A stretch of DNA of 64,000 nt from Prochlorococcus sp. AG-402-I21 (GTDB lineage Bacteria > Cyanobacteriota > Cyanobacteriia > PCC-6307 > Cyanobiaceae). The stretch spans positions 1 to 64,000 of the forward strand of contig QCHZ01000001.1 of the NCBI GenBank assembly GCA_003216955.1, given 5' to 3'. Made by a program: the position numbers and the translations under genes. Below the pieces are notes generated by a model. It had not been told where the DNA came from. It saw only the letters and a program-made list of their open reading frames with translations, and ran no database searches. Shown in pieces: positions 57,061 to 60,583 of the stretch. Within the stretch, counting starts at the first letter, position 1. Each line of letters starts with the position of its first letter.

Positions 57061-57141
57061 TTAGGTAATTTTATTGATATTTTTGGATTTTTTATTTTTA
57101 TCATTATCTTTTAGTGGACGTGTAGGCTTTGGTAAAAGCAT
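57061..57141 (-). CDS. Tiny peptide B1 (MLLPKPTRP..., 26 aa)
   Basis: The minus-strand frame starts at ATG 57141 and encodes MLLPKPTRPLKDNDKNKKSK and six more residues; an in-frame ATG four codons upstream (57153) would add MLTF. The first nine residues match those of the peptide at 57675 except one (T for V). It follows the 51-residue gene A1 at a distance of 76 bases, repeating the arrangement of the upstream copy. The matching gene pairs support it as a real micro-gene. Confidence 0.5.
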   Translation of the reverse strand: MLLPKPTRPLKDNDKNKKSKNINKIT

Positions 57142-57217
57142 AAAAGTTAGCATATCTACTATTTTTTAATCAGATTTAACTTAGTAATCTGCATTTAATG
57201 CTACCAATTTATAGTTT

Positions 57218-57373
57218 TTATTTTACTTTTGTCTTATCAATAACCTTTTGAGTTTCAGCTCTGGAGAGATTAGCCTCAATTTGAGCCAAAACTATCTGCA
57301 ATTCAGCAGTCTTGCTCAATGAGCTCTCAGCCATCAATCTTAGCTTTTTAAGTTCTTTAGATGCAGTTTTCAT
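57218..57373 (-). CDS. 51-residue helical protein A1 (tandem paralog of A2)
   Basis: Starts MKTASKELKKLRLMAESSLS, then KTAELQIVLAQIEANLSRAE and TQKVIDKTKVK. Aligned without gaps to the protein at 57825, both are exactly 51 residues with 23 identities, most in LAQI(E/D)A.LSR.E.QKV. Entirely helical and charged, without membrane segments or Cys. No ribosome site is evident. Equal length and conserved pattern show that both copies are or were under protein-level selection. Confidence 0.66.
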   Translation of the reverse strand: MKTASKELKKLRLMAESSLSKTAELQIVLAQIEANLSRAETQKVIDKTKVK

Positions 57374-57580
57374 GGTGAAAATGAACAAATTCAGTATTTT
57401 AAGATAAACAAAAAAATTGTTTAAAAAGCAATAAGAAGAAGAACAAATCTCACATTGCCAAATATTTTCGTTATGTCAATAGAATTAATGACAATCTTTT
57501 GACAAATTTTTATTTACTATAAGTACATAGAAATATATTATTTTAATTTAATAATTTATTATTGATTACTTAGAAAATAA

Positions 57581-57616
57581 AAAGAACATAGATAGCTTTA
57601 ACAACCTATGTTCTTT
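57581..57616 (-). terminator. Terminator-like hairpin downstream of B2
   Basis: A perfect 11-bp stem pairs 57581-57591 with 57606-57616 over a 14-base loop. In the leftward direction the stem is followed by a U-rich run (TTATTTTCTA), so it can end transcripts coming from A2-B2. Confidence 0.6.
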
Positions 57617-57627
57617 ATAAAAGAATA

Positions 57628-57669
57628 AATTTAAAACTAAATAATTTTAAAATAATTTAGTTTTAAATT
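57628..57669 (-). terminator. First hairpin after B2 (15-bp perfect stem)
   Basis: AATTTAAAACTAAAT at 57628-57642 pairs exactly with 57655-57669 across 12 bases. It begins five bases beyond the B2 stop. It is AT-rich and so only moderately stable; with the hairpin at 57581 it forms a double 3' structure. Confidence 0.5.
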
Positions 57670-57674
57670 CAGAA

Positions 57675-57734
57675 CTAATCTTCCTTTCCCTTCTTTTCAG
57701 AATCAACAGGTCTAACGGGCTTAGGCAAAAGCAT
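57675..57734 (-). CDS. Tiny peptide B2 (MLLPKPVRP..., 19 aa)
   Basis: The frame from ATG 57734 to TAG 57675 encodes MLLPKPVRPVDSEKKGKED. It shares MLLPKPxRP with B1 at 57061 and ends in the same kind of Lys/Asp-rich tail. It lies 90 bases after gene A2. At 19 residues it would be dismissed alone; the duplication makes it credible. It is followed at once by two strong hairpins. Confidence 0.5.
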   Translation of the reverse strand: MLLPKPVRPVDSEKKGKED

Positions 57735-57824
57735 GATAAATAACTATCTCTATATTCATTTATAGGTCGTTTTCAGCATACGTAAATAAGAAGTAAAAAT
57801 TTGAAACTTCTGGCTTCATCAAAA

Positions 57825-57980
57825 TTATCTTTTTTGTGACTTCTCAGTAACCTTTTGATTTTCCTTTCTTGAAAGGGCCGCATCTATTTGTGCTAACGCT
57901 TGATGACGCTGAGCAGTTTTTTTCAATGATGCTTCCTCTTTTGAGTGAAGGATCTGAATTTCTTCGATTGAATTTTTCAT
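57825..57980 (-). CDS. 51-residue helical protein A2 (tandem paralog of A1)
   Basis: I chose the ATG at 57980 because it gives exactly the length of A1; the frame is open for ten more codons to an ATG at 58010 (MLTQMLFFLS...) that A1 lacks. The protein starts MKNSIEEIQILHSKEEASLK, then KTAQRHQALAQIDAALSRKE and NQKVTEKSQKR. It is fully helical and highly charged, with likely oligomerising or nucleic-acid-binding character, but no family is recognised. The order A2-B2-A1-B1 on the minus strand is a tandem duplication of a two-gene unit. Confidence 0.68.
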   Translation of the reverse strand: MKNSIEEIQILHSKEEASLKKTAQRHQALAQIDAALSRKENQKVTEKSQKR

Positions 57981-58115
57981 AGAAAGGAAAAATAGCATTT
58001 GAGTCAACACCTATCAAGAAAATCAAGAAACCAAGACAGTTTTTATCTAAGTTAAAGCTAATATTCGAAGGTTCATGAAATATTCCATTAAATATCCTAC
58101 ATGGGGAGATTATCT

Positions 58116-60154: not shown

Positions 60155-60583
<429 letters not shown>

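Follow-up and report, generated by a model that had tools for sequence, protein, structure and literature searches.

Small RNAs with a peptide frame have been described in Prochlorococcus. In strain MED4, the short peptide-encoding RNAs Yfr6 and Yfr9 contain frames of 33 and 44 aa, respectively (PMC2518516). The gene B2 analyzed here resembles them as a short Prochlorococcus transcript (predicted, for B2) that carries a small conserved peptide frame, and differs from them in three respects. Its frame is shorter, at 19 aa. Yfr6 and Yfr9 RNAs overlap a second ncRNA, whereas no overlapping RNA is known for B2; their sequence is conserved beyond the frame, whereas conservation of B2 ends at the stop codon and resumes at the terminator. 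The main text of a study of the low-light isolate NATL2A reports northern blot validation of the small RNAs Yfr106–Yfr108 (PMC7368042). These are short transcripts outside annotated genes and are likened to the predicted B2 transcript without coordinates, which that main text does not give. Cyanobacterial micro-proteins shorter than 80 aa (PMC5126843) are similar to the A and B proteins of our locus in size class and in being missed by gene calling; the likeness drawn here is one of class, and no Pfam, NCBIfam, or PHROG family matched A or B above threshold where searched. We found no earlier description of the locus.

The locus lies in a 64,000-nucleotide stretch of DNA (the window) from a 1.73-Mb draft genome, whose genus we take to be the LLI low-light clade of Prochlorococcus. 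Re-checked coordinates place four small genes on the minus strand in the order A2, B2, A1, B1 (Table 1), as the first-pass annotation of this DNA had described, with the A-to-B distances it had measured, 90 bases for A2–B2 and 76 bases for A1–B1. The gapless alignment of A1 and A2 with 23 identities was reproduced (47% over 49 residues; tblastn E ~5e-8). B1 and B2 share the motif MLLPKPxRP, and when the genome was scanned with a relaxed DNA version of this motif, these two genes and nothing else matched; the reversed pattern, run as a control on the same genome, gave 0 matches.

Table 1. Coordinates of genes and predicted signals at the A/B locus (positions in the window).
Feature	Position	Strand	Basis or remark
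A2, 51-aa helical microprotein, upstream paralogue	57825-57980	minus	intact in window; defective in 14/30 genomes
B2 upstream element GAAGTTTCAAA	57800-57810	minus	near-invariant in alignment of loci
B2 putative -35, TTTACG	57781-57786	minus	invariant in alignment; 16-nt spacer to -10
B2 putative -10, TATAAA	57759-57764	minus	suggested by alignment
B2, 19-aa peptide MLLPKPVRPVDSEKKGKED	57675-57734	minus	dN/dS 0.018 (30 genomes)
B2 intrinsic terminator, hairpin then T run	57584-57616	minus	predicted; 27/30 genomes
A1 putative -35, TTGACA, then conserved TTTGGCAAATTT-like block	57474-57479	minus	29/29 loci aligned
A1, 51-aa microprotein (predicted single helix), A copy usually kept	57218-57373	minus	dN/dS 0.08
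B1, 26-aa relative of B2	57061-57141	minus	kept in only 8 of the loci examined; dN/dS 0.20

B is present in 30 of the 41 genomes of the host genus, and the A2–B2–A1 arrangement recurs in nearly all of the 30. Because this order recurs together with synonymous variation and purifying selection, the locus is not a chance assembly of open frames. Both genes are real, as had been proposed: homologues exist in related genomes, and dN/dS between strains is far below one for A1 and B2.

B2 (MLLPKPVRPVDSEKKGKxx, 19 aa) is almost invariant across 30 genomes, with a shortened C-terminus in two of them. Its presence at 30/30 loci holds by construction, since B2 itself was the criterion for recognizing loci. 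Across these genomes, pS is 0.52 versus a pN of 0.016, giving a dN/dS of 0.018; this and the other dN/dS values are Nei–Gojobori means across every pair, the synonymous distances being large, and are comparative, not absolute. Arg, Pro, Val, Gly, and Leu codons are swapped between genomes, the four-fold and arginine codons freely. Because synonymous codons swap freely while the amino acids hold, selection acts on the peptide, and B2 is very probably a real protein-coding gene overlooked by ordinary annotation. With 19 aa it falls below the size limits of gene calling, as the first-pass annotation had anticipated, so it is probably passed over in data on presence, expression, and phenotype. Since Prochlorococcus genomes are strongly streamlined, a lineage-specific 19-codon gene must be of use if it is kept with a dN/dS of ~0.02 and a promoter-like block of its own. 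Small-protein proteomics of cultured isolates has two clear targets here, the B2 (MLLPKPVRPVDSEKKGK) and A1 peptides.

The region upstream of B2 contains a promoter-like block formed by the element GAAGTTTCAAA and the putative -35 and -10 boxes, from which transcription would start near position 57751. The combination of GAAGTTTCAAA and TTTACG occurs exactly once, at the B2 locus, in 28 of the 41 genus genomes, and its reversed control gave 0 occurrences in the genus genomes. A regulon sharing the B2 promoter was ruled out by this single occurrence per genome. A candidate HLR1/RpaB site at the GTTTCAAA element was not supported, as the top-scoring sites of shuffled promoters did equally well or better. 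Downstream of the gene, an untranslated stretch without conservation separates the stop codon from the predicted terminator hairpin. In a 27-row alignment, 13 of the 15 base pairs of the hairpin display compensatory (double-sided) changes and 90.6% of cells are paired; 0/500 shuffles attained any of the five covariation measures. B2 looks like a monocistronic gene with a predicted short, autonomous transcript of ~165–180 nt. A1 has a TTGACA block of its own, located ~100 nt upstream of its start, and each retained gene thus appears from these signals to form its own transcription unit. A further conserved stretch lies between A2 and a divergent 73-aa gene, both in the window (57981-58100) and upstream of A2 elsewhere. 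It contains the palindrome TTCATTTAAATGAA in several genomes and could serve as promoter for one or the other gene.

The four genes have had unequal fates. A1 is full length in 28 of 30 loci (dN/dS 0.08, 28 genomes); it is cut to 36 codons in one genome (G004) and missing from the locus in another (G030). For A2, 16 loci have a full-length copy and the other 14 a defective or unrecognizable one; even where intact it is relaxed, with a dN/dS of 0.26 among the 16 intact copies only. B1 is readable in eight loci, in one of which it starts with TTG (dN/dS 0.20, eight copies), and a relic of it was seen at a further locus (L014). The tandem A–B duplication is resolved reciprocally: usually A1 and B2 stay, while A2 and B1 decay. 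Resolution is incomplete, since some selection still acts on A2 (dN/dS 0.26) in the half of the genomes that retain it. A1 and A2 can apparently replace each other, since G030, which lacks A1, keeps A2 intact. The locus is a compact case, readable genome by genome, of a duplicated gene pair resolving reciprocally.

The duplication of the two-gene unit, already recognized in the first-pass annotation, can be placed in time. In a tree of A sequences, which has 51 columns only and in which most inner forks lack resolution, A2 copies from different genomes group as one clade with a support of 100/99; the duplication is therefore a single event that predates the sampled genomes. We consider it probable that this accounts for both the anatomy and the evolutionary history of the locus, namely a single tandem duplication followed by reciprocal resolution to separate A1 and B2 genes. 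A promoter–A–B module would have been doubled in tandem once, before the sampled genus genomes diverged, after which A1 and B2 would usually have been retained as separate transcription units, with A2 and B1 decaying.

Outside the 30 genomes, B was absent from all 359 other genomes of the family that were searched, and the relaxed B pattern was found neither in the 11 genus genomes without B nor in 16 genomes of other genera. In three of the 11 (G023, G031, and G009), the draft contig appears to stop before the locus, making absence uninformative there; two others (G028 and G029) are without A, B, and two adjoining genes. The A gene extends further, to two of 59 genera, the host genus and a second Prochlorococcus genus. 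The loci of the second genus (L107–L168) contain a single A gene at ~4001, ~0.4 kb downstream of pstB, and of the 62 loci, 60 have PstB encoded upstream of A in the same orientation; no B-like frame was found near A. They include P. marinus MIT 9107, MIT 9302, and MIT 9401, which are high-light strains. Two A-like matches were taken as chance: one in G022:C3, within an atpD-like gene and broken by stops, and one in G054, within a 666-aa frame. A phage origin was ruled out, with A absent from IMG/VR and phage records. The B pattern had a single match in IMG/VR (L182), which was put down to chance, as the DNA has 57% GC and the frame closes after 12 codons.

From the repetition of the pair, the first-pass annotation had concluded that A and B act together, a step that the genomes do not bear out. 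The two are not always kept together: the duplicated copies are dismantled reciprocally, with A2 and B1 lost separately. Functional partnership, in which B would bind the A helix or both would sit in one complex, with A1 and B2 as the post-duplication pair in trans, is possible, if rather unlikely. The pair was duplicated as a unit, B is found only in the genus having the A locus, and every assembled B2 locus except that of G004 has at least one full-length A. However, the second genus has A and no matches to B, G004 retains B2 beside a 36-codon A1 and a mere relic of A2, and A1 and B2 lie under separate conserved promoter-like blocks, B2 also having its own terminator. The case for joint action is weakened by the reciprocal losses, by a second genus that has A but no B, and by G004; A and B are probably independent of the adjoining copy and perhaps of each other altogether.

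B2 could instead be chiefly a small regulatory RNA of ~165–180 nt, a dual-function RNA of the Yfr6/Yfr9 kind with a secondary frame, as the autonomous short transcript predicted from its promoter-like block and terminator and the MED4 precedents with peptide frames of 33 aa (Yfr6) and 44 aa (Yfr9) (PMC2518516) would allow. We judge this unlikely: selection falls on the peptide, the RNA is not conserved outside the frame between stop codon and terminator, and the terminator stem varies with compensation, like a plain terminator. The same-strand order of B2, hairpin, and A1 would also suit a leader peptide whose attenuator controls A1, a reading made highly improbable by the conserved TTGACA block of A1 itself, by the freely swapping codons of B2, which form no run of regulatory codons, and by G030, which lost A1 yet retains B2 and its terminator. 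We give equally little credence to a toxin–antitoxin pair, which two small, adjacent, duplicated genes of no known family might bring to mind, given that B is a short, charged peptide that does not span the membrane, that losses are one-sided in both directions (A1 without B1, B2 without A2), that the second genus has A by itself, and that A has no match in Pfam, NCBIfam, or PHROGs and B1 none in Pfam or PHROGs.

The claim that neither gene belongs to a known family stood up to these searches. A gave only weak or sub-threshold matches in Pfam, NCBIfam, PHROGs, and a search of PDB sequences with the A profile, and B1 gave no match above threshold in Pfam and PHROGs; these family negatives concern A and B1, as the 19 residues of B2 are under the 20-residue minimum of the Pfam and PHROG scans. 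Rfam gave no match above threshold at the locus. AlphaFold2 (20 rows) predicted residues 2–50 of A as one long helix, with a pLDDT of 93 and a pTM of 0.57. A long predicted 51-residue helix says little about function.

With duplication and reciprocal resolution as the history of the locus, the likeliest reading of its products, judged from sequence, is that of two taxon-restricted microprotein genes, A encoding a helix of coiled-coil type that would bind a partner and B encoding a peptide that would act as a free ligand. A would act as a single α-helix of the coiled-coil type that associates with itself or with a partner. B would be a free, soluble peptide of 19 residues, whose proline-rich N-terminus, MLLPKPVRP, may dock on a partner protein as a linear motif in extended form, while its charged tail would be exposed to solvent. 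A more specific proposal, which we find doubtful, is that B2 is a stand-alone gene with a regulated promoter and a terminator, encoding a genus-specific, trans-acting ligand or regulator that has the A helix for a receptor; the two members of the functional pair would then come from opposite halves of the old duplication and join in trans.

Some further small frames were noted. A third A-type paralogue, A3, is found at three loci (L026, 1323-1650; L027, 1483-1816; L178, ~2140-2417), directly after, or overlapping, a 58-aa membrane-type ORF (MGFTGNEL...), which persists beside an A3 relic in G034. In G033 (L177, 2079-2213), a 44-aa ORF beginning with MKPLADSNHLQQVLAQIQLNIIRTKDQKMS is weakly A-like (E 0.009) and is possibly a further, decayed copy. 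In the window, the minus strand at 60155-60583 carries a 142-aa ORF with long asparagine runs.
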